NCBI GenBank assembly: GCA_013203185.1
Contig: JABMOS010000095.1
Coordinates: forward strand, 1 to 52,221
Length of the DNA stretch: 52,221 bases
From: Fidelibacterota bacterium
GTDB lineage: Bacteria > Fidelibacterota > UBA8477 > JABMPR01
Direction: 5' to 3'
The notes beneath the pieces were generated by a model, which was not told where the DNA came from, did no database searches, and saw only the letters and a program-made list of their open reading frames with translations. Both the position numbers and the translations under genes were made by a program. Shown here one piece after another: positions 8,801-47,771 of this stretch (positions within the stretch are counted from its first letter, which is position 1; each line of letters starts with the position of its first letter).

Positions 8801-8811
8801 GGATCTGAATC

Positions 8812-16491: not shown

Positions 16492-16523
16492 GGGTAAATA
16501 AGCCCAACGGAGGATTTATTAAA

Positions 16524-17183: not shown

Positions 17184-17213
17184 AAAAGACCTATCGCTAA
17201 GGGATTTGATAAT

Positions 17214-18224
17214 ATGAAGATTAAAAAACTAACAATCTGCATGGCGTTGCTTCTCACGAGTACCGCTTTTGCAGACCAAGAGTTTACGAAGCTCGCCCAA
17301 ACGGGTTTCCAATTTTTGAGTGTCGTTTCAGATGCCCGCGGTGCTGCCCTGGCTGGGGCCATGACAACCACCCCATATGGATCTGGATCACTCTTTTTTA
17401 ATCCGGCTGGTATGGCCGAGATGCAAGGTGCCGTTGATGTCATGGCAAGCAAAAATACCTGGATTGCCGATATCAATCATACGACTATGAGCGTTGCCTT
17501 TAATCCGGCCAATAACAAGTATGGAGTTTTTGGACTTTCTATCCAATCAGTAAGTTATGGTGATATGCAGGGTACTATGGTGTGGGGACACGATCCCGGT
17601 TGGATTGAAACACACACTATTTCACCTTCTGCCTTGGCCATTGGTGCAGGTTATGCTATTCAATTATCAGATAGATTCTCAGTGGGTGGACAGGCCAAAT
17701 ATGCGACGCAGCAGCTGGGGAAGGGCGTTGTTGAAGTTCATCCAGAGAGTACACTTGAAGATGATAGTTTAGGGGTCCAGAAATTTTCAACATCCGCAGT
17801 TGCATTCGACTTTGGGACCCTTTTCAAAACAGGCTTCAAGGGCATAGCATTTGGCATGAATGTGCGAAACTTTTCCAATGAAATAGCATTTTTGAAGGAA
17901 AATTTCCAGCTTCCCCTGACATTCACCATGGGGCTTTCAATGGACCTGATCGATCTGATCCCTAATTTTTCTGACGCACATTCGCTCATGATGAGTGTCG
18001 ATGCCGTTCATCCACGATCATATCCTGAATATATCAATCTGGGTATGGAGTATAAACTTTTGGACATGCTTTATCTCAGATATGGTTTTATGCACAATAG
18101 AGACGAAAGAGCCTCTGCATTTGGTTTTGGGGTCTCTCGTTTTGGTCTTGGTGTTGATTATGCATATATACCTTTCGGAATTCTGGATGAAGTCCAGATG
18201 ATAACTGTAAGATTTACATATTAG
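17214..18224 (+). CDS. PorV/PorQ-like outer-membrane beta-barrel protein (cassette B)
   Basis: QTGFQFLSVVSDARGAALAGAMTTTPYGSGSLFFNPAGMAEM; paralogue of 4617-5624. Confidence 0.85.
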   Translation: MKIKKLTICMALLLTSTAFADQEFTKLAQTGFQFLSVVSDARGAALAGAMTTTPYGSGSLFFNPAGMAEMQGAVDVMASKNTWIADINHTTMSVAFNPANNKYGVFGLSIQSVSYGDMQGTMVWGHDPGWIETHTISPSALAIGAGYAIQLSDRFSVGGQAKYATQQLGKGVVEVHPESTLEDDSLGVQKFSTSAVAFDFGTLFKTGFKGIAFGMNVRNFSNEIAFLKENFQLPLTFTMGLSMDLIDLIPNFSDAHSLMMSVDAVHPRSYPEYINLGMEYKLLDMLYLRYGFMHNRDERASAFGFGVSRFGLGVDYAYIPFGILDEVQMITVRFTY

Positions 18225-28951: not shown

Positions 28952-29003
28952 AGTGGATTACAGAACTTTACTATTAGTAATGAAATAGAACCAGGGAGTG
29001 TAT

Positions 29004-32000
29004 ATGAGTTCAATGCTGGTAAAACTTCACAGAACTATTATTGGTGTATTTATATTTGTTTTAATGACTAACCATCTATTTGCCGGAACTACTGGGAAAA
29101 TTTCTGGCCGTGTGACAGATGCAGAAACCGGTGAAGGCTTACCCGGAGTAAATGTTATCCTTGAAAATACAGGTATGGGTGCCTCTACAGATATAGATGG
29201 AATCTATTTTATTATTAATGTGCCTGTGGGAATATTCTCTGTCCGGGCCGAGATGATCGGCTATAACTCAAGTATTATGACGGAAGTCTCAGTCAGAGGC
29301 GACTTAACCACAGAAGTTGATTTTCCCATGACTATCCAGGTGCTGGAATCCGATCAAGAAGTGATCGTGGTTGCCGAGCGCCCCATGGTTCAAAAAGATT
29401 TAACCTCAGGTCGTTCCATCGTCAGCGCAGCAGAAATTTCAGAAATGCCAGTTGAGTCCCTTGCAGGTGTTATTGGGACAAAAGCAGGAATTGTGGCTGG
29501 AGCAGATGGTTCCATGCATATTCGAGGTGGTCGATCCAGTGAAGTGACCTATATGATTGATGGTGTCCCTGTCACCAATCTCTCTTCAGGAGGTCTGGCA
29601 GTTGGTCTTGAAAACAGTGCTGTTCAGGAACTACAGATTTTGAGTGGTACGTTTAACGCCGAGTATGGGCAGGCCATGTCAGGTATTATCAATATTGTGA
29701 CCAAAGAGGGTGGTGAAAAATACCAGGGTAATATCAGTGCCTACATGGGTGACTATTATACAGAGAATACACGATATTTCGAGCACGCAGACGAGTTTGA
29801 TCCCAGTAATATTAAAAATCTGGAGCTCAGCCTATCGGGTCCTGTTCCAGGATTTGGAAAGAAATTAACCTTTTTCGCCAATGGACGAGCTTACAATTAT
29901 GGAGGTCTCTATCGAGGCGTACGAGAGCATTCTCCAAACGATGTCAACTATCTCACTTCCAAAGCTGTTGAAGAATTACGGGATTCTCCCTGGGGTCGGG
30001 CGGGATTATTGAATTTTGCAGAACCTTTCACCGATCTAGATGCCGATGGTAAGCTGGCACCCGGCAGTGAGTCCTATTTTGATTTTGACGGGAATGGACA
30101 GTTTACAGTAGGGGAGCCCTTCCGGGATGTCAATGGAAATGGTCGTTATGATCATAACATCGACTTTAATCAGAACGGATTCATCGATAATGAAGATTGG
30201 GAATTTATAGATCTTAATGGAGATGGCGTACTTAACGGAGATCCCTTTGTAGACGCCAACTTTAATGGCGTTCTTGATGGTGAACCCTATATCGATTTTA
30301 ATGGCAATCAAATGTGGGATAGTGGTGCCACAGGGGATTCCAGTATTGTCCGTCTGAATACTTCCTCCAGGGTCAATGGAATGCTCAAGTTGACATGGAA
30401 GATCAATCCAAAGTTAAAACTTAATGCAAGTATTATTCACAACATTGCCCAGTCACAAAGCTATAGTCAGGGATATAAATACAATCCCGATGGTCGACCT
30501 ACAAATGAGTCTACTTCCACATCGATTATATTGGACCTAAGACATTCACTTAATGCGAGGATGTTCTATAACATTAAAGGATCCTATTACCAGACCACAG
30601 CCAAGACTTACTATATTGATGTCGATCCCACTAAGTTGAGTGAGGATAAATCCCTGGTATTTAACAATGTGAGTGATTGGGCTGATTTCATTGACGATGC
30701 CGCTGCAGATGATGCAGCTGGAATCGGAATGGGGAGTTTTTATGGCTCAGTGCAAGATTCTTTATTGATTTTAAAAAGCGATATGGTCATCTCTTTTCAT
30801 GATAGTTTGATAGTTGGTGGCGTGACCATGTACGCAGAAAATATTTTTGGTAGCAATTCATTTTCAATCGGTGTCACCAATACATGGGAATCTACTGCTG
30901 GACCATCCTGGGTGGAAACACTTAGCGACCCTTCAATAATCGACTGGATTCAACAGATTAAATTCGATTTTGTCATCAACGACCTAAAAAAGGCATACTT
31001 TTTACCAAACGAAATTTCAGAACAACCTGATAACGAGTATTTGGCTGGAGGTCACAGCCATTCCTTCTCAGAACGTATCAATCGAACCTATCTTATGAGT
31101 GCTGATCTTACCTGGCAAATGAACAATACACACCAGGTGAAAGCTGGTGTTGGCTTTAAAACCCATACCATGGAATACAAGGCCTACACTGTTTTTGTTC
31201 AGGAAAATCTGGACTGGATTCCAACCATTAAAACGACTGAATCCAGTTTCTCCAATGATTCTTACGACAATTGGCTTACAGATGCAGTATCCAAGCTTTC
31301 ACTGGACACACGCAACCCACGAGAAGCATATGTTTATCTTCAGGATAAGATTGAATTGAAGGATATGATTGTTAATCTCGGATTACGTTATGACTATTTC
31401 AATCCGAATTATTTTGTGCCTAGTGACTACAGAGATCCAGAAAATCCCACCTACTGGCTCTATACGCTGGCCAATCCAGAGACTGCTAACCTGGACACCT
31501 TTTTCCAATTCTCTGGCGAGGTAACGGCTTTCGATGAAATTCTTGATACCCTGGATGCCAATGGAGAGCCCTGGAAAGAGTACAACGACTTTTATGTAGA
31601 TACAGAACCGGTACATCAGATATCACCTAGAATTGGTGTTGCTTATCCTATTACGGATAAAGGAATTATCCACTTTAGTTATGGTCACTTTTTCCAGATC
31701 CCCACATTTAGTTACCTCTATGCCAACCCGGAGATGGAAATCAGTACAGCCAGTAATGAATCAATTCTGGGCAATGCCAACTTGAAACCTCAAAAGACGG
31801 TTACTTACGAGATTGGCTTGCAGCAGGAACTGACTTCGGATCTTGGGATTGAAATCATTGCTTTTTATAAGGATTTTTCAGGATTATTGAGTTCTGATCA
31901 ATACGAGAAGTACAATACAGTAAAATATATTGTTTATTCAAATCGCGATTATGGGGACACAAAAGGTATCACCTTCTCAATTAATAAGCGGCGCTCAGGT

Positions 32001-32555
32001 TTACTCTCTGCTTCAGCTGACTATACGTACCTCGTAGCCCAGGGAAATGCCTCCAACCCCTTGGCCTTGTTTTATGCAAACCAAAGTGATCCACCAGCCG
32101 AAGTCGTCAAGCAGGTTATTCCTCTGGACTGGGATCAAACCCATACTATTAATGTCAATATCTCTTTATCTCAGCCACGTAAGTGGGGTATTTCAATCCT
32201 TACCAAATATGGATCTGGCTTGCCATACACGCCGACATATCAGGGCTCCTCATTAGATGCCGCCAATTCTGATCGTCGTCCCGATTTTTTCAATGTTGAT
32301 ATCAATATGCACAAAGATGTTGTATTCGCAGGTCTCCATTGGACAGTTTTTGCCAAGATTTATAATGCTCTCAACATCCAGAACGAGAGAAGCGTATTCT
32401 CAGATACTGGCCGAGCCACATATTCTCTCATCCCGACCTATACGCCGGATCGTGGGAATATTTATGGCCGACATTCCCTTGCCGATTGGTTAACTAGACC
32501 TAATTATTTTAGTAGTCCTCGACAGTTTCGTGTCGGTTTCTCAACAAGTTTCTAG
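29004..32555 (+). CDS. TonB-dependent receptor with carboxypeptidase-regulatory-like domain and Asp-rich EF-hand-like insert (cassette C)
   Basis: GKISGRVTDAETGEGLPGVNVILENTGMGASTDIDGIYFI; FNAEYGQAMSGIINIVTKEGG; insert DLDADGKL...DFDGNGQF...DVNGNGRYD...DLNGDGVLNGD. ATG at 29004 (track start 28998 is GTG). Confidence 0.92.
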   Translation: MSSMLVKLHRTIIGVFIFVLMTNHLFAGTTGKISGRVTDAETGEGLPGVNVILENTGMGASTDIDGIYFIINVPVGIFSVRAEMIGYNSSIMTEVSVRGDLTTEVDFPMTIQVLESDQEVIVVAERPMVQKDLTSGRSIVSAAEISEMPVESLAGVIGTKAGIVAGADGSMHIRGGRSSEVTYMIDGVPVTNLSSGGLAVGLENSAVQELQILSGTFNAEYGQAMSGIINIVTKEGGEKYQGNISAYMGDYYTENTRYFEHADEFDPSNIKNLELSLSGPVPGFGKKLTFFANGRAYNYGGLYRGVREHSPNDVNYLTSKAVEELRDSPWGRAGLLNFAEPFTDLDADGKLAPGSESYFDFDGNGQFTVGEPFRDVNGNGRYDHNIDFNQNGFIDNEDWEFIDLNGDGVLNGDPFVDANFNGVLDGEPYIDFNGNQMWDSGATGDSSIVRLNTSSRVNGMLKLTWKINPKLKLNASIIHNIAQSQSYSQGYKYNPDGRPTNESTSTSIILDLRHSLNARMFYNIKGSYYQTTAKTYYIDVDPTKLSEDKSLVFNNVSDWADFIDDAAADDAAGIGMGSFYGSVQDSLLILKSDMVISFHDSLIVGGVTMYAENIFGSNSFSIGVTNTWESTAGPSWVETLSDPSIIDWIQQIKFDFVINDLKKAYFLPNEISEQPDNEYLAGGHSHSFSERINRTYLMSADLTWQMNNTHQVKAGVGFKTHTMEYKAYTVFVQENLDWIPTIKTTESSFSNDSYDNWLTDAVSKLSLDTRNPREAYVYLQDKIELKDMIVNLGLRYDYFNPNYFVPSDYRDPENPTYWLYTLANPETANLDTFFQFSGEVTAFDEILDTLDANGEPWKEYNDFYVDTEPVHQISPRIGVAYPITDKGIIHFSYGHFFQIPTFSYLYANPEMEISTASNESILGNANLKPQKTVTYEIGLQQELTSDLGIEIIAFYKDFSGLLSSDQYEKYNTVKYIVYSNRDYGDTKGITFSINKRRSGLLSASADYTYLVAQGNASNPLALFYANQSDPPAEVVKQVIPLDWDQTHTINVNISLSQPRKWGISILTKYGSGLPYTPTYQGSSLDAANSDRRPDFFNVDINMHKDVVFAGLHWTVFAKIYNALNIQNERSVFSDTGRATYSLIPTYTPDRGNIYGRHSLADWLTRPNYFSSPRQFRVGFSTSF

Positions 32556-32568
32556 GAAGGTGTTAAAT

Positions 32569-35500
32569 ATGAAGAAGAATATGACCCTATTGCTCGCCTT
32601 CATCACCTTCATGGGTGTGTTGAATGCAGGACCAACTACCAATAATCCAGTCCCCGCCAATAAGCAGGATCGTGCGGCCTGGTTGAAATATTATAATACT
32701 CTGGATAGACAGGCTCATTTATCAAAGGCTTCTGCCCTCAGTGATCGCAAGGCTGGGACTCACAATGGAAACCGAGTCAGAACACTATTTTACAATTATG
32801 GATCTATCGGTCGACCCAATACAGAGCCATCCATGGAATGGCCTATTGGTTCAGGACGTGGCTATGCCTTTGAGTTTGGTGTAGTTGCTGGTGCCAGGAT
32901 TACAACGTTCGGCGGTCAAAGTGACATTATCGTCAGTGATGGTCTTACGGTTGCTGGCGTGCGCTATGACAACAGCGGTTTTGACAATAATCCAGGGGAT
33001 TGGCAACCTTTACCCGGTTTTCATGATCCCTTTCAATCCTCCATTGCCATGAGTGATGCAATTGACGAAAACAGGGACAATAAACCCGATTCATGGCCTG
33101 GCAACTGGTACAATACAGCTTTTCAAGATTATATGTGGCCTGGTGAGTATGGTGTTGGTGTCACTACAGCTGACCAGGAATCCTACTACGTCATGGACGA
33201 TTTTTATATCAAGAGTCACAATACATACTGGCCCCAGCAGGGATGGTCAGATTCGCTAAGGGGTGATGAATTCTATCCCGGATTTCCCGCCGATACCGTA
33301 CGGGGAGGCTTAGGGCTCCAGGTTGAATCTCGTGGCTACCAATGGATAGCAACCCGAGCACAAAATGTGATTTTCTTTGTATATGAACTGAAGAATGTTG
33401 GTTTGGATACTCTGGATAACCTGTATTTCGGGATGTATGGAGATCCCCATGTTGGTGGTGCCTCTGACTATAGTGATGATGATGCATATTTTGATACCTT
33501 CATCGATATTGTATATGGTTGGGATGACGATGCCATTGGTGATCCAGTGTTTGGAACCACATTGCCTGGATTTTTTGGCTACAAATTTTTGGAATCCCCA
33601 GGCGAACCTCGAGACGGTATCGATAATGATGCTGACGGCATGATCGATGAGTCCATGCAAGATGGAATTGACAATGATGGTGACTGGGAAATCTATTCTG
33701 ATTGGAATCTCAGCGGTGAATGGGACGAGGGTGAACCTGTAAACGATGACCTGGGATCCGATGGTGTAGGGCCTGAAGACCCGCAATATGTAGGACCTGA
33801 CGCCGATGGGAGCGAAACGAACGGCATGCCTGATCCTGGCGAACCAAATTTTGACGAGAAGGATCTCGATGAGGCTGACCAGATCGGTTTAACCGGGTTT
33901 ATTGTTGATTCCTATTCCAATAGTACTGAAACGGAAGATTATTATTATTCCAGTCGGCTCACAGCACCCATAGACACATCCGCTTTTCAGCAGAACGCTG
34001 ACAATATCTTTATGTATAGCTCAGGCCCGATTAAAATGGCACCAAATGATGTACGTCGTTTTTCAATAGCCATGCTTTATGGGTATAATTCAAATGCGGC
34101 TACGGGTGAGACACTCTATGAAGATCCTCACAATGTGCGTGATTTGTATGCAACTGCAGCTATTATGCAGGAGATTTATGATGCTGGATATCGCTTTGTT
34201 AAGCCACCAAATAAACCCCGGCTAACTGCAGTCCCTGGCGATGGTCAGGTTACACTGTACTGGGATGAAGGAGCTGAAAAGTCTCGGGATCCACTCTATG
34301 GTAAGGACTTTGAAGGATATGCCATTTACAGGGCCACCGATTTTGGCTTTAATGAATCACTGGTAATCACGGATACCTATGGTAGTCCATATCTTTGGAA
34401 TCCAATTGCAAAATTTGATTTGAAAAACCACATATCAGGTCCCCATCCTACTGAGCAAATAAAAAACTCAGGTCTGCACTTTGATATGGGTCGAAATAGT
34501 GGATTGGTCCACAGCTTTGTGGATAAAAATCTGGTCAACGGGCAGCGTTACTTCTACGCAATTTGTGCCTATGATTCAGGATCGGCTATAGATACGATCC
34601 CTCCAACAGAGACCTCTAAGACAATCCAGGAGGACTTTGCTGGCAATGTTTCACTGGATGTAAATACGGCGATGGTTACGCCTCAGGCTCCTTCAGTTGG
34701 GTTTATTGCTCCAGAAATAATTGACATCAGCGATCCAGGAACACCTGGTACTGGAAGGGTTGAATTCACTATCATTGATCCCACTCTGGTTCCTGATAAC
34801 CGCATATTGGAAGTGCGCTTTGTTGATTCTGGGATGGACTTAGTTGACAATGATGGTGATTGGGAGAGTTATACGGACACGGAAATTCTCCGTAATAACG
34901 GCGTCTATGTGGATATGATCGTTCCTCCCAGTGGTGACACTTTAAGCTATTCAAGCAGCTCGACAGATATGGTGTTGGTGAAGGGCGAAGTGGGTAACAT
35001 CTTTGATTACAATGGTTTTCAATGGAAAATTAAAACATGGATAGAGGGCCCAAGCCTCTCCACAGATACAGTGTATATCTATCCAGATGCCTTTGTCATC
35101 ACACCTACCCTGGACATATGGGATCCTGCTGTTGATGGCAGCGTCAATGATGATGTTGGTTCTGACGGCTGTTCAGACGAATATGAAGATGGAAGCGGGG
35201 GATGTTCTGAACTCGTTGTAGCCTTGCCCGGGTCGGATCCGAATGGTGATAATTGGAACCCTCTGACCAATTCGACAGGTACAGAGGCCAATGGCATACC
35301 GGACGCTGGTGAACCCGATATAGATATGAATGACTTTCAGGAGTTGGTGCGGGAAACGCAGTCCTTTTCAGTTGTGGATGTTACGGACCCTCTGAGTGAA
35401 ATAATGATTATGGACAATCAGCTTGGAATTCATGGTGAGGATTTTAATCAAATAAGTAACGGACTTCAGGTATTTGTTGAGAATGACACGCTGACCCTTG

Positions 35501-37314
35501 ATGACGATCGGATTGGCTGGTCCAGCGGAGATTGCATCTGGCGACCTGCGGCCCGTGTCTATACAAGTGGTACCAATGGAATTGCGATTCCTTTGGACTA
35601 TCGACTCGAATTTTTTGATACTGTGGTGGATACATCTCTTCGTTTAGGTGTTTGGACTCGAACCCAATTTCCCATGGCTTATAGTGTAACCGAGATGCAA
35701 ACCGGTCGCAGAAGTAACGTTATTGTGGCAAGCAATGTGGATTCAAGTATTCAAGCTACCAGCAAAATCACACCATTTTATTATTCCAATGAAGCGCGGA
35801 CAGGAACTGAAATTGGTGTTGATCTTCTGCCTACCTGGGAATTTTCATTCACCTCTCCTCTAGGAAAAGTTGAGAGCATTTTACCCTTGTCCAATGGTGT
35901 GATGATCGGGACATCACTTAGAGGTGTTGCTGTATACAACCAGGATAGCCAAGGCTGGAAATTCTGGACAAATATAAGTTCTGGTGGTGGATTGATCTCA
36001 GATGTCGCCATTAAAGATATTATTTACCACGAAGGCCATTATTGGGTCGCTACATCGCATGGTGTTTCCCTGTATGATGGTGAGATATGGAAGCATAATC
36101 AACGTCTTGAAGTCATCTTTGATGAGTGGGAAGAGGATAAATCTGCTACACTGGAAGAACCACAGGCAACCAAGAGTTATGCTGCTTGTACTGCCCTGGA
36201 TGTTGACAGTGAGGGCTCAGTATGGATTGCAACAGGTGAACACGGCCTTATAAGAGTTAACACACGTGGTACCTATCTCACCAGTTATGATGATCAGATA
36301 GACTTTATTACCGGCCCTGATTCTCTTTCAGAATATCTGGAAACACTTCTGGATACTGAAGTAAACGATCTCAAGGTGATTGACAATATGGTTTGGATTG
36401 GAACCGACAAGGGTCTTGTAGCCTATGATTATATCGACTCTGTTTGGACCCATTATCCCAAGGATAATGTCAATGGGCTTTTGAATGATGATATCTATGC
36501 TATCGACCAATTACCTGAATCATTAGGTGGAAATCTCATCCTGGGTACAGCAAAGGGTGTTGCCTTCATGGTCAATGATGCATTTACCGTTTATTTCAAA
36601 TCAGATTCCACACTACCAGATAACAAAGTTTACAGTCTGGCCTACAAGAGTGATTCTGAATATTTTCTTGGTACCGGTTCAGGCTACGCTGTCATGAACC
36701 TCTCCAATGCCAGCAGCGACTTTAGCTCAGGAATTGAGTTTGAGCAATTTGAGGCAAGTTGGGGCAATGAAACCATTTACACTGATAAGAATATTAAAGC
36801 CATCGCCTTTTCAAATGGTTTTGGCTACTTTGGAACTGAGCACGGTCTGGAACAACGGATTTCTGAAAATGAATGGAATACCTTTGGACCACAACCAGGT
36901 GATATCCTGAATATTTTTACGAAGAAACAATTCAGTAGTATCGACAGCCACATCTATGAAACTTCTGCTGCAAAGGAAGCTGCTGAAAAAGTAATCAATA
37001 ACCTGGATGCAGTTGCAGTGGTTCCCAATCCATATGTTGCCACAGCTATCTGGGAGCAGAAACCTTATCTTCAGTCAGGCAGGGGGGAGCGTAAGATATA
37101 CTTTATAAACCTTCCATCAGTCTGTACCATTCGTATTTATACAATGGCAGGTGAGCTGGTTAAGAAATTAGAACACAATGAATCCTTTTTCAATGGGGCT
37201 GAACCGTGGGATCTCCTTAACCTGGATAATCTGGAGGTCGCCTATGGTGTTTACATATACCATATTGAAACCGATAACGCAGAAACCATCGGCAAATTTG
37301 CCGTGATTAAATAA
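32569..37314 (+). CDS. Very large secreted cassette partner with FN3-like, Asp-rich modules, two-component-regulator-type propeller repeats and variant C-terminal tail (cassette C)
   Basis: ATG 32569 with signal peptide MKKNMTLLLAFITFMGVLNAG; PNKPRLTAVPGDGQVTLYWDEGAE; propeller repeats WVATSHGVSLYDGEIWKH, VWIGTDKGLVAYDYIDSVWTHY; tail VVPNPYVAT...FINLPSVCTIRIYTMAGELVKKLEH...KFAVIK. Confidence 0.82.
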   Translation: MKKNMTLLLAFITFMGVLNAGPTTNNPVPANKQDRAAWLKYYNTLDRQAHLSKASALSDRKAGTHNGNRVRTLFYNYGSIGRPNTEPSMEWPIGSGRGYAFEFGVVAGARITTFGGQSDIIVSDGLTVAGVRYDNSGFDNNPGDWQPLPGFHDPFQSSIAMSDAIDENRDNKPDSWPGNWYNTAFQDYMWPGEYGVGVTTADQESYYVMDDFYIKSHNTYWPQQGWSDSLRGDEFYPGFPADTVRGGLGLQVESRGYQWIATRAQNVIFFVYELKNVGLDTLDNLYFGMYGDPHVGGASDYSDDDAYFDTFIDIVYGWDDDAIGDPVFGTTLPGFFGYKFLESPGEPRDGIDNDADGMIDESMQDGIDNDGDWEIYSDWNLSGEWDEGEPVNDDLGSDGVGPEDPQYVGPDADGSETNGMPDPGEPNFDEKDLDEADQIGLTGFIVDSYSNSTETEDYYYSSRLTAPIDTSAFQQNADNIFMYSSGPIKMAPNDVRRFSIAMLYGYNSNAATGETLYEDPHNVRDLYATAAIMQEIYDAGYRFVKPPNKPRLTAVPGDGQVTLYWDEGAEKSRDPLYGKDFEGYAIYRATDFGFNESLVITDTYGSPYLWNPIAKFDLKNHISGPHPTEQIKNSGLHFDMGRNSGLVHSFVDKNLVNGQRYFYAICAYDSGSAIDTIPPTETSKTIQEDFAGNVSLDVNTAMVTPQAPSVGFIAPEIIDISDPGTPGTGRVEFTIIDPTLVPDNRILEVRFVDSGMDLVDNDGDWESYTDTEILRNNGVYVDMIVPPSGDTLSYSSSSTDMVLVKGEVGNIFDYNGFQWKIKTWIEGPSLSTDTVYIYPDAFVITPTLDIWDPAVDGSVNDDVGSDGCSDEYEDGSGGCSELVVALPGSDPNGDNWNPLTNSTGTEANGIPDAGEPDIDMNDFQELVRETQSFSVVDVTDPLSEIMIMDNQLGIHGEDFNQISNGLQVFVENDTLTLDDDRIGWSSGDCIWRPAARVYTSGTNGIAIPLDYRLEFFDTVVDTSLRLGVWTRTQFPMAYSVTEMQTGRRSNVIVASNVDSSIQATSKITPFYYSNEARTGTEIGVDLLPTWEFSFTSPLGKVESILPLSNGVMIGTSLRGVAVYNQDSQGWKFWTNISSGGGLISDVAIKDIIYHEGHYWVATSHGVSLYDGEIWKHNQRLEVIFDEWEEDKSATLEEPQATKSYAACTALDVDSEGSVWIATGEHGLIRVNTRGTYLTSYDDQIDFITGPDSLSEYLETLLDTEVNDLKVIDNMVWIGTDKGLVAYDYIDSVWTHYPKDNVNGLLNDDIYAIDQLPESLGGNLILGTAKGVAFMVNDAFTVYFKSDSTLPDNKVYSLAYKSDSEYFLGTGSGYAVMNLSNASSDFSSGIEFEQFEASWGNETIYTDKNIKAIAFSNGFGYFGTEHGLEQRISENEWNTFGPQPGDILNIFTKKQFSSIDSHIYETSAAKEAAEKVINNLDAVAVVPNPYVATAIWEQKPYLQSGRGERKIYFINLPSVCTIRIYTMAGELVKKLEHNESFFNGAEPWDLLNLDNLEVAYGVYIYHIETDNAETIGKFAVIK

Positions 37315-37325
37315 GGAGATTGACC

Positions 37326-38366
37326 ATGAGAAAAATAATGATCATGCTCCTTGTTATTACAGTATCAATGAGCTTCGGACAGTACAAGGGTGGGACGACA
37401 GCGGCACAATTTCTAAAAATCGGCATTGGCAGTCGTGCAACAGGTATGGGTGAGGCGTATGTGGCCATGAGTCAGGACGCTTCTGGGCTCTATTGGAACC
37501 CTGCTGGAATTGCTCAATCTGGTGGCGGTGAAATCATGTTTCAGCGCAACAACTGGATTGCTGATGTATCAATTAACTATATGGGAGTCATTTTCCCGCT
37601 CTATGGCATCGGAACTGTGGGTATGAGCATAACTTCACTCACCATGGATGACATGAAAGTCAGGACTGAGTTAGAGCCAAATGGTACTGGTGAGGAGTTT
37701 ACAGCCAGTGATCTGGCCCTGCAAGTTAGCGTTGCACGTGCGCTAACTGATCGATTCTCCATTGGGTTTAATACTAAATTCATCCAACAGAGTATCTGGC
37801 ATAGCACAGCTTCAGCCATGGCCATAGATGTTGGGACCCTATTTAGAACCCAATTCAACGATATGCGTTTGGGTATGAGCATCTCTAATTATGGTGCCAC
37901 AATGACCATGTCTGGACGTGATGCACTGGAACGCTATGATCCAGCTCCTGGATTCGAAGGTAATAATGATGCAATCCCTGTTGACTATGCCATGGATAGT
38001 TGGGATTTACCCCTGATTTTTAGAGTGGGAGTCGCCATGGATGTCATTGATATTGGTGTTACTAAAGTCACCCTGGCGCTGGATGCCATACATCCAAATG
38101 ACAATTATGAGTCTATTAATATTGGCTCAGAGCTAAGCATTCTAGATAAATACTTTCTGCGAGCAGGATGGAAATCTCCCTTTGTGGAAACCAACACGTC
38201 TCTGGCTTCTGCAGATACGGAATCCCGGGAAGAAGGCTTTACTTTTGGAGCAGGTTTTGATCTCCCCATATTCGGATCGGCTTCAGGATTTCGATTTGAC
38301 TATGCCTATGCAGATTTCGGTCGCTTGCAGAACGTACAACGCTTTAACATCAGTTTGTATTTTTAA
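37326..38366 (+). CDS. PorV/PorQ-like outer-membrane beta-barrel protein (cassette C)
   Basis: KGGTTAAQFLKIGIGSRATGMGEAYVAMSQDASGLYWNPAGIA; RBS aaggag; ATG 37326. Confidence 0.88.
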   Translation: MRKIMIMLLVITVSMSFGQYKGGTTAAQFLKIGIGSRATGMGEAYVAMSQDASGLYWNPAGIAQSGGGEIMFQRNNWIADVSINYMGVIFPLYGIGTVGMSITSLTMDDMKVRTELEPNGTGEEFTASDLALQVSVARALTDRFSIGFNTKFIQQSIWHSTASAMAIDVGTLFRTQFNDMRLGMSISNYGATMTMSGRDALERYDPAPGFEGNNDAIPVDYAMDSWDLPLIFRVGVAMDVIDIGVTKVTLALDAIHPNDNYESINIGSELSILDKYFLRAGWKSPFVETNTSLASADTESREEGFTFGAGFDLPIFGSASGFRFDYAYADFGRLQNVQRFNISLYF

Positions 38367-38400
38367 TGCTGGATGTTTAGCATAGAGAAATGTAGTATTC

Positions 38401-38444
38401 AGGGCGCTCTTCCGCAAGGCAGGTGTTTTTCGGAAGAGCGCCCT
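38401..38444. repeat. 14-bp perfect inverted repeat (stem-loop) between cassettes C and D
   Basis: agggcgctcttccg (38401-38414) / cggaagagcgccct (38431-38444), 16-nt loop; no T tract follows on the + strand. Confidence 0.85.
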
Positions 38445-38492
38445 TGCCACAATAAAATATGGTTTAAGCTTAATAATTAAGGCGGGGCTGGT

Positions 38493-41400
38493 ATGAAAAA
38501 GCTAAGTCGTTTCATTCTGATTTTTTTAATTGGATCTCATTTTCTCTATTCTGGTACTTCTGGAAAATTAACAGGGCGTGTTTTAGATGGGAGTACCGGT
38601 GAACCCCTCATCGGTGTCAATGTATTTCTACCTTCCACTGGACAGGGTGCAGCTAGCGATATAGATGGCAATTATCTCATTCTCAATATTCCTCCAGGTG
38701 AATATAATTTGCATTGTTCCATGATAGGCTATTCTGAGCAGGTCGTTGAAAGCATACGCATTATGGTGGATCTCACCACAACTCAGGATGTGGAGATGAC
38801 ATTGAGCATCATCGAAGGGGATGTGGTCACAGTGACTGCAGATAGATCGATGATTCAGGCCGATATCACCCATGCCCAGGCCAATATCAGCTCAGCCGAG
38901 CTGGAAGCAATGCCTGTGGAATCCTTTCAGGCAGCAGTCTCCCTCCAGGCTGGTGTGGTAGTAGATGCAGGTGGTGGAATCCACATTCGTGGTGGACGGT
39001 CTTCTGAGGTTGCCTACCTCATTGATGGAATTCCCGTGACCAACTCTTATGGCCAGAATATGGGTGTCGGCATTGAAAATAATGCCATTCAGGAACTTCA
39101 GGTCATTTCCGGAACATTTAACGCAGAATATGGACAAGCTATGTCTGGTATTATCAATATTGTCACCAAAGATGGTAGTCTGGACAAATACGCAGGGCAA
39201 TTGAGCTATCGTTTTGGAAGGTACATTTCGACAGACCCTGAAATTTATATGGGATTAATACCAGGGGATATCGAATTAAAAGATGATTTGAATATCTCAA
39301 AAGTTGACATATTTGGATTCGACTCCAAAACCTTTACACCACAGGGCCGTCAGGATATACAATGGAGTCTCAGCGGGCCTGTTCCTGGACTTTCAAAAAA
39401 GACATCCTTTTTCACATCAGGTCGGTATGAAGATCTAGCTGGCCGTTTATACGGCGTCAGACGCTTCAAAACGGATTCATTCTCCTGGGATAGTGACAAT
39501 TCCATCGCCGTTGAAAATGGAGAGTTTTTCTCTGATTTCATTGATTATGGCGCTGATGGTTGTCCTGACGAATATGAAGATGGTGAAGGTGGCTGCTCAA
39601 ATACGCCACTGAATCTTGGCCCTGATCCCAATGGGGACAATTGGGATTTTCATCTCAACCCAAATGGGGGAGAAGGAAATCAGGTTAGAAATGCTGGCGA
39701 GGTGGGGAATGGAACATGGGATGGTGGGGATAGATTGTATTCTGTAGATCCAGATATTTTCATGGATCAGTCAACTGGGAGGTGGTACCGAGATACCAAC
39801 GGAAATGGCAGGTACGATTCTGACCTTGATGATCGGGTATCCAATCCCGAGTTAGCCTATGAAGATCTGGATGGCAATGGCCGTCTCAGTGGCGAATACT
39901 ATATCGACGGTGATGGGAATGGTGAGTGGACGAATAACAGAGGAGATAATGCTGTGGTGCCTCTCTATAATTCTACGAGCCTGAACTTGCAAGGCAAAGT
40001 AACCCATTTGTTTTCCCAGAGTTTGAAATTGTCCTTAAATGTCCTTTATGGGAGCAGCAGGACCTATAACAGCAACGCAATTGGTTGGAAATACACGCCT
40101 GATGGACGCGCGACTTCCTATGGAAATAATATGAATATTGGACTGGTATTACAGCACACTTTAAGCCCTGAAGCTTACTACTCGATCAAGGCGTCCATTC
40201 TTGGAAATTTTGGGCGTTCCTATTACAAAGATATCTATGATGTAAATTGGAATTCTCTCTTTCTCTCCAATATGTTTCGAGGCTCTGATTTTAATATGCC
40301 GGAACCACCCGACTATCTTGCAGAATCCCTGGACAACTATGAGAATGACAATAACATTCTGAGTGCATCTACAGGACAGAAATTCAATTTGGGAGGTATC
40401 TCCAAATACCATCTCTATCGCATCACCAGAACACAATTGCTAAAGTTTGATATGACCAATCAGATCAATAATATGCACCAAATTCAGGCTGGTTCTGAAT
40501 TCAAATATACCAGTATCTTTCGTAGGGATTTCTCCATACTTTACGATCCTGCAGAAGGATACTACACGCCTGAAATTCAAACACCGGATCAAACAGAGAC
40601 TACAACGAATTATAGCGAAATGGTCAAAAATCCATATGAATTCGCCTTCTATTTCCAGGACAAAATAGAAGTTGCCGACATGATTGTGAATGCTGGTGTG
40701 CGCTATGAAATATTTGAGCCAGATGGGCATACCTTGAACGATGTTGCTGACCCAAATCCTTATGCTCCCTTAAAATTAATCAACAGGTTTCATGACCTGG
40801 ATGGAGATGGATTGATCACCGAGGCTGAAGCCGTATCCTCAAATGCCAAAACCTATGATGATCGGCTGGAGTACTGGTTTAAGGATGCTTCCAAAAAGTA
40901 CCAGTTCAGCCCACGTCTGGCTATTGCGTATCCGATCACTGATAAAGGCGTTCTGCATTTTTCTTACGGTCATTTTTTCCAGATTCCCAGCTTTACCTAT
41001 TTATATATAAATCCTGATTTTGAAGTCCCTGTCGGTGGAGCTGTTGCATCAGCTACCATGGGAAATGCAGATCTAGAACCCCAGAAAACCGTCCAATACG
41101 AAGTGGGTTTTCAACAACAGTTTGGAGAGAATATAGGGGTTGATGTGACTGGTTTCTATAAGGATATCAGTAACCTGCTAGGATCTGAGATTCTAACAAC
41201 CTACACCAGCGAAGTCTACGGACGCTATATAAATCGAGACTATGGAAACGTCAAGGGGTTGACCATATCCCTGAACAAACGTTATTCAAATGGATTTTCT
41301 GCAAACCTGGATTACACATATAGTGTGGCTGAGGGAAATGCTTCTGATCCTCAGTCCGTATTCTGGGATGCCCAAAACAATCGTGAATCAGAAAAACAAC

Positions 41401-41840
41401 TGGTCTATCTGGATTGGGATCAACGCCACACTCTCAATGGAACGGTCCTATTCAAATTGCCTTACAAGGTAAATCTTAGCTTTATTGGAGAATACGGGTC
41501 GGGTTTACCCTACACTCCTGCAAATCCAGGACTTGCTGGCGGTGGATTTGAAAACAGTGCCCGGCGTCCCAAGCAAATCAACCTTGATATGCGCATCACA
41601 AAATCTCTCATGTTTGCAGGCAGAGAGTTGAGTTTCTCCGCCAATATCTATAATCTTCTGGATATTCGAAATGAGGTGACTGTTTATACTGACACAGGTA
41701 GATCCGGTTACTCTTTGATTCCAACTTACACAGCAGAGGACCTAAATTGGAGGTATAACACACTGAGTGAATATTTGAATCGCCCAGGTAATTATTCATC
41801 GCCACGCCAGATTCGTGTTGGCATTTCAACCTCACTGTGA
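38493..41840 (+). CDS. TonB-dependent receptor with carboxypeptidase-regulatory-like domain and Cys/Asp-rich insert (cassette D)
   Basis: GKLTGRVLDGSTGEPLIGVNVFLPSTGQGAASDIDGNYLI; FNAEYGQAMSGIINIVTKDGS; 1115 aa, paralogue of 29004-32555. Confidence 0.92.
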   Translation: MKKLSRFILIFLIGSHFLYSGTSGKLTGRVLDGSTGEPLIGVNVFLPSTGQGAASDIDGNYLILNIPPGEYNLHCSMIGYSEQVVESIRIMVDLTTTQDVEMTLSIIEGDVVTVTADRSMIQADITHAQANISSAELEAMPVESFQAAVSLQAGVVVDAGGGIHIRGGRSSEVAYLIDGIPVTNSYGQNMGVGIENNAIQELQVISGTFNAEYGQAMSGIINIVTKDGSLDKYAGQLSYRFGRYISTDPEIYMGLIPGDIELKDDLNISKVDIFGFDSKTFTPQGRQDIQWSLSGPVPGLSKKTSFFTSGRYEDLAGRLYGVRRFKTDSFSWDSDNSIAVENGEFFSDFIDYGADGCPDEYEDGEGGCSNTPLNLGPDPNGDNWDFHLNPNGGEGNQVRNAGEVGNGTWDGGDRLYSVDPDIFMDQSTGRWYRDTNGNGRYDSDLDDRVSNPELAYEDLDGNGRLSGEYYIDGDGNGEWTNNRGDNAVVPLYNSTSLNLQGKVTHLFSQSLKLSLNVLYGSSRTYNSNAIGWKYTPDGRATSYGNNMNIGLVLQHTLSPEAYYSIKASILGNFGRSYYKDIYDVNWNSLFLSNMFRGSDFNMPEPPDYLAESLDNYENDNNILSASTGQKFNLGGISKYHLYRITRTQLLKFDMTNQINNMHQIQAGSEFKYTSIFRRDFSILYDPAEGYYTPEIQTPDQTETTTNYSEMVKNPYEFAFYFQDKIEVADMIVNAGVRYEIFEPDGHTLNDVADPNPYAPLKLINRFHDLDGDGLITEAEAVSSNAKTYDDRLEYWFKDASKKYQFSPRLAIAYPITDKGVLHFSYGHFFQIPSFTYLYINPDFEVPVGGAVASATMGNADLEPQKTVQYEVGFQQQFGENIGVDVTGFYKDISNLLGSEILTTYTSEVYGRYINRDYGNVKGLTISLNKRYSNGFSANLDYTYSVAEGNASDPQSVFWDAQNNRESEKQLVYLDWDQRHTLNGTVLFKLPYKVNLSFIGEYGSGLPYTPANPGLAGGGFENSARRPKQINLDMRITKSLMFAGRELSFSANIYNLLDIRNEVTVYTDTGRSGYSLIPTYTAEDLNWRYNTLSEYLNRPGNYSSPRQIRVGISTSL

Positions 41841-41854
41841 GATAGGACGATTCT

Positions 41855-44800
41855 ATGAAATTCAGAAATATTATTATAACGACCATATCTCTTTTAGTGG
41901 CTAGTCCTTCAATTCTGAGTGCAGCCAGCCCAAGCAAAAGTGATTTTGCCAATCAGAAACATCTGAGAAAAAATGCTGCGCTTGGTGCAGATGATAATAA
42001 TCATGCTGGCCGTCGTATCGGTATTCACAGCGGAAATAAAATCTTCACCCGGTTCACAAATTACGGCGGTATTGCAGATTACACCGTGCCGGGGAGATTT
42101 GATAGTGGCATTTATCCTATTGGAAGTGGACGATCATACCTGGCTGAATTTTCACCCATTGTGGCAGCGGAAACAGCAAATGCTAAAAGTGGTGCCCCTG
42201 CCCATATAATCAGCGAAGGAACGCCTGTAATTGCAGATAAACCTTCTGGTTCAAATTACCTCTGGCAATTCGAACCTATACTTGGGTATGCAAACAACAA
42301 TGATTCGCTAATCGCAATGAGCGATGATTCTCTCTCATGGCCGGATAGTTGGGCCGATCTCCCGTCTGATTGGGACGGAACCTGGGCTGGTCAATATGGC
42401 AAGTATAGTCGGGCCGATCAAGAAAGCTACTTCCACATGGATGATTTTAACAATGACGAATTTAGCCATTATCCAATCCTTGTGGATCCGGAAGTTCATT
42501 TTTGTGAAATTGTAGAGATTGATGACTCTGATTCCAATGACTATGGAATATTAACAGATATGACGACCTCATTCGCAGGTCTTGTGCGAGATGTTGATCG
42601 TGCTACTGCATTGTCATCCAGGGATGGTAGACGCCCTGATGTAATAAGAATACTCGATGATGATGAAAATATGAACAATGATAAATGGTACGAGATTGAA
42701 TCAATCTTAAATGACAACCAAATTTTAGTAAAAGCTTTTCTAAATGGAGCAGCGCCCTTGCCTGCTGGTAGCGAATATCTCATATACGATGGCTTTAAAC
42801 GAGGCGTGGGAGTGGATGTGGCAGCACGAGGGTATCAATGGGCACACCCAGCAGCCGAAGATATTTTAATTTTCACCTACTGGATTCGGAATATCAGTTC
42901 CTGGGATTACCAGAAATTTATTTTTGGCATGTATGGTGATGCTGATGTTGGTGACGCTAGTCCTGTTTCTGAACATCATCATGACGATGCCTGGTTTGAT
43001 ACAATGAATGATATTGTGTATCAATGGGATACTGATTTGTGGTCCCAAAATCATGGTGGCTATGTACCGGCATATTTTGGGTGGAAATATCTGGAATCTC
43101 CTGGAAATCCCCTTGATGGATTGGACAATGATGAAGATGGCATGATCGATGAGCGCCAGGATGATGGGATTGATAATGATGGTGATTGGGATCCCTATCT
43201 TGATGATACTGGTTCTGATGGCATAGGACCCAATTTTGGTGAATACTCTGGTCCAGATAGTGATGGTACTGAGGGGAATGGTGTCCCCGATGCTGGAGAG
43301 CCAAATTTTGAATATACCGATAATGATGAATCAGATCAGATCGGGCTCACAAGTTTTACCGCTGGCCCTTGGCCTGGTATTGACCTGACCAGAGATGGTG
43401 ACTCGTGGGACAAGTTGACGCCAGGATCATTCACCAATATTTTACAGAATGTAGATTTGACATTTATGTATGGGTCAGCCTATTTTGAACTACCTCAACA
43501 AGAGGAGCGCAAATTCGCCGTAGCCCTCATTTTTGGAAACGATTATGAAGACATCCTCCGGAATTCAAAAACGATGCAACAAATTTACGATAGCGATTAT
43601 AATTTTGCTAAACCGCCAAATCTGCCCAGTGTCACTGTGGTTCCAGGAGATGGCGCTGTGACCCTATACTGGGATGATAAAGCCGAATATAGCGTCGATC
43701 CTATTTATGGAATGGATTTCGAAGGTTATCGTATTTATCGTGCCACAGATCCTGCGTTCAACGAAGTGTGGAATATTACCGATACCTATGGCAATCAGAC
43801 TTTTAACAAACCCATAGCTCAGTTTGATGTTATTGATGGGCTCGTTGGACCACATCCCTATGGTCTCAACGGAATCCATCTGGATATGGGAACGGACACT
43901 GGCTTGAGACATTCCTGGACGGATACAACCGTAGTGAATGGACAAAGATACTATTATGCTGTGGTCTCGTATGACTTCGGCTATGACTATGATTTTTATG
44001 AGAGGGGTATATCCAACATTGATCTTCGACCACCCATCACACCCTCAGAGTGTACCAAGCGGATTGAAATCAATGCCTCAGGAAATGCAGTTGATTTTGC
44101 CATTAATACGGTAGAAGTAACACCCAATGCTCCAGCCATGGCATACATCGCTCCGGAAATTATTGCCGATGCCACTACCACCCTAGGAACTGGAAAACTG
44201 GAGGTGGAGGTTGTTGACCCCTCGAAGATTAAAAATAATGACCAATATCAGATTAGCTTTCGTGATTGGTCAGAGGATGGGATTGACAATGATGGGGACT
44301 GGCGTACGTGGACTGATGATTCGACACGAATCACTTTGAGCTCAACTTTGGATATGTTGATCGCACCAAATGCAGATACCCTTGATGTCAATCTTCCAGG
44401 TTCCCATGTGGTGAATGGGATAACTGCCACAACAACTCGTTTCTCTTTTAACGCGTTTGTATTCTTTACCACCTTTGTTGATACAGAAACAGTTTCTACG
44501 CCCGACACGACATATTTAAGGCATTTTGTTGAGATCCCCGATACCAGCTTTATTCTGCCACCTACCGTGGGAATTTGGGACGGTTGGGAACCACTTTATA
44601 GTGATGTGGGTTCAGATGGCTGCGATGATGCCTTTGAAACGGGTAATCCCAATAATCCCTGTTCAGAGCTTGCCTTGAATCTAGGGGGAGATCCCAATAA
44701 CGATAATTGGAATCCCGATACAAACCCAAATGGAACCCAGGCCAATGCCAAGCCTGACTTGGGTGAGCCAAACTTCGAGACCAACGATGTGGACGAACTG

Positions 44801-46669
44801 TCTCGCAAAACGACCTCGTTTCAATTGGATAACTTGACCACAGGGCAGGTGTTGCTCCGTGATCAAACAGATTTCAGTGGTGAGAACAGAGGCGTTGTCA
44901 CTGAGGGAATCCGGGTAAATGTGAGCAATGATGAAGTTGCTTTGTTAGAGGGTGAATCTGGTTGGATGACCCCTGGATTGAACTTCATAACATATATTAC
45001 ACCAGAAAAATATAATACTCTGGGATATAAATCTGTGCCCTTTGACTATCTTTTAACCATCGATTCCCAGGTTACTGATACTTCAATAAACAATAAACCA
45101 GTTACTTACCATCTGGAAGATTTGACCAATCAAAAACCCGTGGATTTCGTTCTTTCCACCACAATAAATGATACGCTTCTACGCTCTGGATCTTTAATGT
45201 ATCCAATTATTGAAGCAAGCGGTGAGAGATACGTAACGTGGAGATTCAATCATCGTAGCAAGGTGGGCGATATAAATGCAATTACCCAATGGGATGATTT
45301 GGTCATATTTGCTACGGCCAGTAGTGGTATTGGTGTGTATGATGGTAGTACTTGGACAAATCTGACCATGGAAACTGGTCTCATTTCGAATACCATCTAT
45401 GCACTTGAATTTAGTCAGGCTGGGAACCTTATGGTAGGAACAGCCGGTGGTCTCAATGTGCATTCAGACTATGGCTGGCAAACCTATGCAATTGACCTGG
45501 ATCCTGTCGGATTCAATGCAGAAGAAGTCAAGTATGACTGGCTCAGTTTTGAAGATATTCTTGAAGACTCTGAGGGCATTTTATGGTCAATCTCAAACAA
45601 AGGATTGTTTCGTTGGGACTGGCATCGAACCAGCATCGCTCATATCTGGTCCGAAAATGCCATTACAACAATGGATTTCCAGGCAGATACTTTCGCCACA
45701 TTTGAGAGCGATACTCTCATGACAGGAATAATTCAAAACGAATCCATCGATTTATTGGATCTAGGCTCTGGTACAATCGTAGTCGGAACAAAATCTGATG
45801 GATTAGAATTTTTTAACTCTTCTACGAGTTCATTTTGGTATCTGAATGAAGATAACTCAGACTTACCAGATGATAAAATTCTATCTATGTTTCATAAAGG
45901 TGATAGCCTCTACATAGGAACGCAGCAGGGTCTTGCCATCTACGATTTAGTGGACAGTCTGGTGGTCTATGCCAATAAGGATAGTCTCCTGGATAGGAAA
46001 ATCGTTGAAGTATTTGTGGGGTCAGACAGCCGGATACATGTCTCGACTAGGAATGGTTACAACGTCATTGATTTCTCCATCACTGAGGGTTCTCAGTATA
46101 TGGCTTACACAAACACAAATGTGCCTGCCTTTGGAACGAAGAAGGTACAATCAGTTCTCCAGTTAGAGGATGGAACCATCTGGGTGGGCAGTGATTTATC
46201 TGTAGCTCGTTTTAAGGACGATACGTGGCAAAATTGGGAGCCTAAGGCAGGCGATCAGCTTATTGTCAAGTCGCGTAAGCCATTCTCAGCCAACGATGTG
46301 CTGAATTTCACAGTCACTGGTGCAAATATTGATGTCGATGCTCCTTCAAGCCTCCTTGAAGATATCTCAGTCGTACCAAATCCCTATGTGGTGACAGCAT
46401 CCTGGGAACCTCAACACCTGTTTGATTCCGGTCGAGGTATTCGCAAGATTGATTTTATTAATCTGCCGCCAGAATGTACAATCAGTATTTATACCATCAG
46501 TGGTAAGTTTGTCAATTCCATTGAGCATAATTCTGAAATTTGGGATGGAGCTGAATCCTGGAATCTCCTCTCACGAGATGGATTGGAAATTGCCTATGGC
46601 ATTTATCTATACCATATAGATGCTCCAGGTATTGGCAGTCATGTTAGCAAATTTGCTGTGATTAAGTAG
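41855..46669 (+). CDS. Very large secreted cassette partner, paralogue of 32569-37314 (cassette D)
   Basis: PNLPSVTVVPGDGAVTLYWDDKAE; propeller repeats IGVYDGSTWTNL, GTQQGLAIYDLVDS, IWVGSDLSVARFKDDTWQNW; tail VVPNPYVVTASWE...FINLPPECTISIYTISGKFVNSIEH...KFAVIK. Confidence 0.82.
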   Translation: MKFRNIIITTISLLVASPSILSAASPSKSDFANQKHLRKNAALGADDNNHAGRRIGIHSGNKIFTRFTNYGGIADYTVPGRFDSGIYPIGSGRSYLAEFSPIVAAETANAKSGAPAHIISEGTPVIADKPSGSNYLWQFEPILGYANNNDSLIAMSDDSLSWPDSWADLPSDWDGTWAGQYGKYSRADQESYFHMDDFNNDEFSHYPILVDPEVHFCEIVEIDDSDSNDYGILTDMTTSFAGLVRDVDRATALSSRDGRRPDVIRILDDDENMNNDKWYEIESILNDNQILVKAFLNGAAPLPAGSEYLIYDGFKRGVGVDVAARGYQWAHPAAEDILIFTYWIRNISSWDYQKFIFGMYGDADVGDASPVSEHHHDDAWFDTMNDIVYQWDTDLWSQNHGGYVPAYFGWKYLESPGNPLDGLDNDEDGMIDERQDDGIDNDGDWDPYLDDTGSDGIGPNFGEYSGPDSDGTEGNGVPDAGEPNFEYTDNDESDQIGLTSFTAGPWPGIDLTRDGDSWDKLTPGSFTNILQNVDLTFMYGSAYFELPQQEERKFAVALIFGNDYEDILRNSKTMQQIYDSDYNFAKPPNLPSVTVVPGDGAVTLYWDDKAEYSVDPIYGMDFEGYRIYRATDPAFNEVWNITDTYGNQTFNKPIAQFDVIDGLVGPHPYGLNGIHLDMGTDTGLRHSWTDTTVVNGQRYYYAVVSYDFGYDYDFYERGISNIDLRPPITPSECTKRIEINASGNAVDFAINTVEVTPNAPAMAYIAPEIIADATTTLGTGKLEVEVVDPSKIKNNDQYQISFRDWSEDGIDNDGDWRTWTDDSTRITLSSTLDMLIAPNADTLDVNLPGSHVVNGITATTTRFSFNAFVFFTTFVDTETVSTPDTTYLRHFVEIPDTSFILPPTVGIWDGWEPLYSDVGSDGCDDAFETGNPNNPCSELALNLGGDPNNDNWNPDTNPNGTQANAKPDLGEPNFETNDVDELSRKTTSFQLDNLTTGQVLLRDQTDFSGENRGVVTEGIRVNVSNDEVALLEGESGWMTPGLNFITYITPEKYNTLGYKSVPFDYLLTIDSQVTDTSINNKPVTYHLEDLTNQKPVDFVLSTTINDTLLRSGSLMYPIIEASGERYVTWRFNHRSKVGDINAITQWDDLVIFATASSGIGVYDGSTWTNLTMETGLISNTIYALEFSQAGNLMVGTAGGLNVHSDYGWQTYAIDLDPVGFNAEEVKYDWLSFEDILEDSEGILWSISNKGLFRWDWHRTSIAHIWSENAITTMDFQADTFATFESDTLMTGIIQNESIDLLDLGSGTIVVGTKSDGLEFFNSSTSSFWYLNEDNSDLPDDKILSMFHKGDSLYIGTQQGLAIYDLVDSLVVYANKDSLLDRKIVEVFVGSDSRIHVSTRNGYNVIDFSITEGSQYMAYTNTNVPAFGTKKVQSVLQLEDGTIWVGSDLSVARFKDDTWQNWEPKAGDQLIVKSRKPFSANDVLNFTVTGANIDVDAPSSLLEDISVVPNPYVVTASWEPQHLFDSGRGIRKIDFINLPPECTISIYTISGKFVNSIEHNSEIWDGAESWNLLSRDGLEIAYGIYLYHIDAPGIGSHVSKFAVIK

Positions 46670-46678
46670 GAGGTTGAT

Positions 46679-47719
46679 ATGAAACTATCAAGAAATACAA
46701 TTCGTATAGCTATCATCTTCCTGGTATTGGCTTCCACCACCCAGGCAGTCTCTAAAAGAGGTACCACTGCTGCTTCCTTCCTGGAAATTGGGATTGGAGC
46801 CAGGGGAACGGCTATGGGGAATGCCTATGTAGCTGTCGTGGACGATGTCAATTCTCTATACTGGAATCCAGGTGGACTAGCCCTCATGAAAAAGAGCGAG
46901 GTTAGTTTTATTCAGACCAACTGGCTGGCAGGTATCAGCTTTAATAATGTTTCTGGAGCCTTCCCCATGGGGAATCTGGGAACTGTTGGCTTCGCGCTTA
47001 CCAGCATAGCTATCGAAGAAATGGATGTGACTACCGTAGATCAACCTGACGGTACTGGAGAACGCTTTGGGGCTTCAGATTTATCTGCGACTCTGGGGTG
47101 GGGTAGAAAATTCACAGATCGATTCTCTTTTGGCGCAAACGTGAAATATATCGAAGAGCGCATATGGCATATGAAAGCCAGCTCGGTTGCAGTAGATTTG
47201 GGAACCACTTTTAAAACCCAGTTCAGGGATCTGAAAGTTGGAATGAGTGTTTCTAACTTTGGTGGCAAAATGCAGCTAAAGGGAGACGATACACTCATCG
47301 AAGTTGATGTCGCTCCTGATCAAGAAGGCAACAACTCACGTATCAATGCCCATCTGGATACTGATTACTGGTCCCTGCCTCTGACTTTTAGAGTTGGATT
47401 GGCTGCCGATGTATTGAGAATTCCACATGGAAAACTGACCCTGGCTGTTGATGCCGCCCATCCCAATAACTATTCCGAAAGTATCAGTGTTGGGGGAGAA
47501 TTCAACCTCATGGATTTGGCATTCCTAAGAGCGGGTCAGACTTTTTATCTTGATGATGTGGATGAAGACGGAAACGCCCTCGCTCCAGAAGGTTTCAGTG
47601 TAGGTGGGGGTGTAAACCTTCTCATAGCCCGAAACCTGCGCTTTAAACTGGATCTAGCATATGGCGATTGGGGAATACTCAGTGATACTCGTCGTTTCAG
47701 TTTAAGTTTGGAATTTTAA
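46679..47719 (+). CDS. PorV/PorQ-like outer-membrane beta-barrel protein (cassette D)
   Basis: KRGTTAASFLEIGIGARGTAMGNAYVAVVDDVNSLYWNPGGLA; RBS taggagg; C-terminal LSLEF. Confidence 0.88.
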   Translation: MKLSRNTIRIAIIFLVLASTTQAVSKRGTTAASFLEIGIGARGTAMGNAYVAVVDDVNSLYWNPGGLALMKKSEVSFIQTNWLAGISFNNVSGAFPMGNLGTVGFALTSIAIEEMDVTTVDQPDGTGERFGASDLSATLGWGRKFTDRFSFGANVKYIEERIWHMKASSVAVDLGTTFKTQFRDLKVGMSVSNFGGKMQLKGDDTLIEVDVAPDQEGNNSRINAHLDTDYWSLPLTFRVGLAADVLRIPHGKLTLAVDAAHPNNYSESISVGGEFNLMDLAFLRAGQTFYLDDVDEDGNALAPEGFSVGGGVNLLIARNLRFKLDLAYGDWGILSDTRRFSLSLEF

Positions 47720-47771
47720 CCCGGAGTTTTCATCTTTTGACTGTACATTGTTGAAAGAAAGAAGGAAGTCA

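Follow-up and report, generated by a model that had tools for sequence, protein, structure and literature searches.

A Cys/Asp module shared by a TonB-dependent receptor, its large neighbouring surface proteins and SprA in Candidatus Neomarinimicrobiota

Does a protein module shared by a TonB-dependent receptor (TBDR) and by the large surface proteins encoded at its side reflect matched interaction surfaces, or the shuffling of a module among genes? An earlier note had raised both readings for a stretch of 52,221 nucleotides (hereafter, the window), in which it described a Cys/Asp module on one receptor and on two partner proteins. The window is contig C84 of a Candidatus Neomarinimicrobiota assembly of 3.07 Mb in 155 contigs, which is 82% complete.

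Two cassettes of the window, C and D, are arranged head to tail on the forward strand, and each of them encodes a receptor, a partner and a PorV-family protein. Cassette C starts with receptor C (28998..32555), a TBDR without the module according to Pfam and alignment, and continues with partner C (32530..37314), a large surface protein with propeller repeats (Reg_prop) that is a T9SS type A cargo, as deduced from the sorting domain in its last 110 residues (TIGR04183, 24.7 bits versus a cut-off of 23), and with a PorV/PorQ-family outer-membrane protein (37320..38366; NF033709, 201 bits versus a cut-off of 90). In cassette D, receptor D (38493..41840) contains a CarboxypepD_reg N-domain (PF13715), a plug (PF07715, E 2.6e-10) and a barrel (PF00593, E 1.4e-26), the last two above cut-off, which identify it as a TBDR. 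Likewise, Foldseek comparisons of its model retrieved TonB-dependent transporters including FepA and PhuR (best E 1e-20), with XusA-XusB and BtuB-BtuG among the matches; it is not a SusC/RagA protein, reaching 78.6 bits with TIGR04056 versus a cut-off of 368.25. It is followed by partner D (41855..46669; Reg_prop), a paralogue of partner C whose C-terminus is under the TIGR04183 cut-off of 23 (17.3 bits) and by eye resembles that of partner C, and by a second PorV/PorQ-family protein (46679..47719; NF033709, 208 bits versus a cut-off of 90).

Cassettes that pair a TBDR with a large surface protein, mostly next to a PorV-like gene, are found repeatedly: there are four in the window (4503-18224 and 28998-47719), related ones on contigs C88 and C61 and at loci L041 (5310-13318) and L042 (531-6743), and several partner paralogues per genome of the genus. 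The gene at 47748-48923 of the window follows the last cassette in those genomes of the genus where that end is sequenced, and a diverged version of it occupies the same place in the sister family.

The three peptides quoted in the earlier note are present, in frame, in the long open reading frames of receptor D, partner C and partner D. They belong to a module of about 51–55 residues with the pattern GxDGCxDxxExG-C-DPNxDNW-NGxxxN-GE and a usual Cys spacing of C-x10-C. In receptor D it spans 39543..39701 (core 39549-39701), with Cys357 at 39561-39563 and Cys368 at 39594-39596; in partner C, 35158..35313, with Cys881 at 35170-35172 and Cys892 at 35203-35205; and in partner D, 44609..44767, with Cys923 at 44621-44623 and Cys936 at 44660-44662, here spaced C-x12-C. 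The stretch originally delimited in receptor D, 39541-39945, does cover the module and a large part of the remaining loop, but its first nucleotide is out of frame and its translation contains stops. Both partners also carry a Cys-less sister copy in their N-terminal half, at 33748..33894 in partner C (DLGSDGVGP...PDADGSETNGMPDPGEPNFDEKD, from alignment to the Cys copy) and at 43205..43351 in partner D, and further partner paralogues, encoded on contigs C88 and C61, have Cys-less frames as well.

Alignment confirmed the similarity at both levels: the partner modules are 59% and 51% identical to a 51-residue query from receptor D, and the DNA of the copies is 60–65% identical, a value low enough to indicate that they are old. 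Local alignment scores stand far above those of shuffles of the same 51 residues (z = 19.7 for partner C and 13.8 for partner D), there is no similarity between the module and receptor C (z = -0.6), and receptor D with the module region cut out shows none to either partner. The sharing is thus real, confined to the module and not an effect of composition. Searching this 82% complete genome with the same query, as had been suggested, returned only the three places already described (E 1.3e-31, 6.8e-12 and 7.7e-8). Both Cys are invariant in all 39 complete cassette copies, together with acidic and glycine positions, and the cassette profile contains 16 invariant columns in order, including the two Cys. 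Asp/Asn make up 27–28% of the module and of the remainder of its loop, versus 14% of the barrel, and within the genus the module is more conserved than the loop after it (identity 0.74 versus 0.64) and less conserved than the barrel.

The same trio of modules is found in 10 of the 19 genomes of the genus and, at about 50–55% protein identity, in three genomes from a second family of the order, with the trio split over contigs or partly missing in G014 and G020. An orthologue of receptor D (77–84% identity) exists in 10 of the 19 genus genomes, and all ten orthologues contain the module. Two further genomes, G003 and G017, keep receptor C, porin C and partner C, the latter with an intact module; they lack cassette D at that place, and an orthologue of receptor D was not found in them. 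In both (L055 5938-8335 and L056 13517-15870) the porin gene of cassette C directly adjoins the gene that elsewhere follows that of cassette D, for which reason cassette D looks like a unit that was gained or lost. The remaining seven genomes have no module and no close orthologue of partner C or receptor D, and six of them contain distant paralogues of both. Receptor C is devoid of the module in every genome seen, and at locus L089, from another family, a partner with the Cys module adjoins a receptor without it.

The copies of the module are homologous and cluster largely by protein, not by genome, with higher identity within classes (0.67–0.71) than between them (0.54–0.58). Modules of a receptor and a partner from the same genome are not more alike than those from different genomes (permutation p = 0.93, 0.53 and 0.17), and each copy has been inherited vertically, without concerted evolution. 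In a wider tree, the modules of both cassettes group together (support 95/73), apart from those of SprA, the esterases and other proteins, and a single clade of receptor D copies (100/95) nests among the partner copies, in trees of 55–64 columns where the nesting depends on rooting. These groupings, together with a similarity that ends at the limits of the module, bear out the suggestion of module shuffling. Most likely they reflect one old event in which receptor D acquired the module from a partner gene, at a time when the two families of the order had not yet diverged; as the tree has few columns, we infer this direction.

Beyond this operon, a profile search gave matches in 188 of the 245 genomes of the phylum. 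Among the matches listed outside this order, most are open reading frames of about 2030–2140 residues, the size of SprA, and two of them were identified as SprA with TIGR04189 (650 and 729 bits). From 72 loci across GTDB genomes, 43 are SprA by similarity, including examples from Latescibacterota and Zixibacteria, 11 are receptor D, two are partner C and one is another partner; nine are esterase-like proteins, mainly of Myxococcota/delta-proteobacteria, of which three were checked by Pfam and the rest were assigned by module and length, and six are other large proteins, two with T9SS tails. The cassette module follows the order of the SprA-type module (DxGxDG, Cys pair, DPNxDN, NGTExN), and profile comparisons relate it both to that of SprA (hhalign, E 2.4e-16 over 49 columns) and to that of the esterases (E 3.8e-24 over 56 columns). 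The Cys pair is present in 28 of 28 SprA modules, a count biased by the retrieval of these loci with a Cys-containing pattern or with DPNxDNW, and hence not a frequency. As to viruses, none of 21 pattern matches was confirmed as a viral contig. The earlier note had itself named a wide occurrence on unrelated secreted proteins without TBDR linkage as the finding that would speak against its reading; the module is indeed widespread on SprA, in three phyla, and on esterase-like proteins. Its presence on SprA and on unrelated secreted enzymes points to a portable building block of surfaces instead of a lock and key between receptor and partner.

Several single loci add to this picture. The esterase-like proteins at L079, L082, L087, L094, L101, L103 and L114 (Myxococcota/delta-proteobacteria) show the full module and a second DxGLD frame, and L096 shows a Cys-less form. 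A 623-residue open reading frame of another family (L058 14678-16546) terminates in a tandem array of several module copies and related frames, and at L092 (6690-10554) the gene of a 1000-residue protein with the module immediately precedes the start of a TBDR gene. In SprA of the genus itself, the place of the module is taken by a Cys-less frame, EDLGIDG...INGTEGN. This SprA (L179 and other loci) contains neither the Cys pair nor DPNxDNW, both of which occur in SprA of other families in the phylum; in this genus, the Cys form is found on the receptor and the partners instead of SprA. The recurrence of Cys-less frames in partners and SprA suggests that the Cys pair and DPNxDNW were elaborated on a general acidic surface frame. 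Our literature search on the T9SS of this phylum found the phylum named only once.

Structure models place the module tentatively. The AlphaFold model of receptor D has a mean pLDDT of 56.7, with most of the loop and the module under 50, and the strand order of this low-confidence model puts the module between strands 304-316 and 493-506, within a long loop of residues 317-492 (39441..39968) that is probably the second extracellular loop if the topology is that of a canonical TBDR. In a partner fragment (mean pLDDT 61.8, and about 70–79 over the first half of the module) it sits between beta-rich segments, with moderate model confidence, and a fold search with this fragment gave only weak FnIII-like matches. 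Searches of solved structures yielded no convincing match with a profile without SprA rows (best E 0.044, a designed protein) and only F. johnsoniae SprA, with E about 1, when those rows were included.

We consider it reasonably probable that this is a portable, disulfide-pinned and probably Ca2+-binding extracellular module of about 55 residues, which was copied once into the loop of receptor D and works as a local stabiliser. An acidic frame (DxGxDG ... DPNxDNW ... NGTExN ... GE) would be pinned by the two Cys, most probably joined by a disulfide within the module; this is the natural pairing because most receptor D orthologues have no other Cys beyond the signal peptide and the N-terminal domain. 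The Asp/Asn loops probably bind Ca2+. Such modules would be inserted in surface-exposed stretches of secreted and outer-membrane proteins, in this phylum and a few others, and a single copying event would have brought one from the partner gene into the long, putatively extracellular loop of the neighbouring receptor D, with vertical inheritance thereafter. Its job is most likely local, holding a long, acidic and exposed loop rigid and resistant to proteases. Against a generic module stands the confinement of the copies of this genome to one operon, which a purely generic module would not require.

Matched interaction surfaces would in turn mean that the modules of receptor D and partner D, and perhaps that of partner C, dock on each other, for example via shared Ca2+, so that the partner, exported by the T9SS, stays as a lid on its receptor. 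The genes of the three proteins are neighbours and have been inherited as a set, and every receptor D orthologue in which this region is sequenced has the module, as does its partner D. TonB-dependent transporters with surface lids are well established, and two such systems, XusA-XusB and BtuB-BtuG, appeared in our fold search. However, the module is not on both members of each receptor-partner pair: partner C has it and receptor C does not, partner C retains it in G003 and G017 where receptor D is missing, and the partner at L089 carries it next to a module-free receptor. Receptor and partner modules do not covary within genomes either, and their counterparts are spread over SprA and esterases. 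These objections bear mainly on the C pair and less on the D pair, and altogether we regard docking as unlikely.

A role in the capture of ligands or metals, with acidic, Ca2+-loaded loops at the mouth of the receptor binding substrate or ions and the partner copies doing likewise, seems to us rather improbable. The position of the loop at the receptor mouth, as its predicted topology would have it, and the acidic DxNxDG-type repeats of receptors A and C agree with it; SprA, a protein channel, and the esterase-like proteins carry the module too, which argues against a transport-substrate role. In receptor C, the loop that corresponds to the module loop has DxDxDG-type acidic repeats in its stead, which again suggest that receptors of this kind commonly bear acidic loops that may bind Ca2+; many DxDxDG and DxNGNG repeats were observed around residues 330-450.

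It is very unlikely, in our view, that the module is a homotypic, Ca2+-dependent docking tag shared by SprA, cargo and certain TBDRs, by which exported cargo would be handed to, and kept at, the receptor; its scope would be the receptor D-partner D pair, or SprA and cargo in families whose SprA has the Cys module. In Flavobacterium, the SprA cap contacts the sorting domains of cargo (PMC10994853), so that a role of the module at the translocon is conceivable. A term search of PMC10994853 and PMC7463736 found no mention of calcium in SprA.

Bonds between proteins, which would link receptor and partner covalently, have a precedent in the T9SS/gliding machinery of Flavobacterium, where inter-protein disulfides join SprF to GldK and PorG to GldK (PMC12635249). 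Those bonds use Cys of periplasmic C-tails, such as Cys324/Cys326 of SprF (PMC12635249), in this genome partner C would find no Cys on receptor C with which to pair, and the joint conservation of both Cys at a nearly fixed spacing in every protein class indicates an internal bond, so that we give the covalent link hardly any probability. Gene conversion still going on among the three genes, which would keep their modules alike, has next to none. Neighbouring genes with similar segments, such as these, are open to conversion; we rejected it since copies from one genome are not more alike than those from different genomes, group by protein and share only 60–65% DNA identity. Equally negligible is convergence of independent Asp/Asn/Gly-rich loops by chance, in a region of biased composition, and a composition artefact was rejected in view of scores 14–20 standard deviations above same-composition shuffles, 16 invariant ordered columns and the hhalign values above.

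In all, the element looks like one that is uncatalogued but of a fairly ordinary kind. This recognisable surface module, for which there is no Pfam match, is a mark of SprA in much of a phylum, and it is found again on T9SS cargo, on one receptor lineage and on secreted esterase-like proteins of other phyla. The cassettes provide, in addition, a well-sampled example of the movement of a module from one gene to its neighbour within a receptor operon. For receptor-partner specificity, a shared module is evidence of little weight. With a family model, these proteins could be annotated better, and it could be tested directly whether sharing a module implies contact.

Among the nearest known systems is the SprA/Sov translocon of the T9SS (TIGR04189, PF14349; PDB 6H3I/6H3J), which in Neomarinimicrobiota contains DxGLDGCxDEYEDGWGGC...DPNGDNW...NGTEGN, often preceding a TEDLN-type motif. 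The receptor and the partners share only this module with SprA and are not SprA themselves, and in most SprA modules the stretch from the Cys pair to DPNGDNW contains a longer insert. In F. johnsoniae SprA, residues 1087-1154 (DVGLDGLPSSRE...DPAGDDYTYYLN...NGTEGN) occupy the corresponding place with a marginal score; like SprA of this genus, and unlike the cassette modules, this stretch has no Cys pair. The esterase-like proteins (PF00756) of Myxococcota/delta-proteobacteria contain the same module at full length, but differ from the receptor and the partners in having no TBDR domain and no match to a sorting tail. Thrombospondin type 3, EF-hand and dockerin repeats have Asp/Asn/Gly-rich loops, some with disulfides. 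The module resembles them in such loops, whereas Pfam models of Ca2+-binding repeats, these included, match none of 12 module sequences at E ≤10, in a scan where most weak matches are lost to HMMER filters. Finally, the layout of a TBDR beside a large surface protein is like that of SusC/SusD-type transporters with a surface lid, with the difference that the place of the SusD lipoprotein is here taken by a T9SS cargo-like protein of 1600 residues, adjoined by a PorV-family gene.
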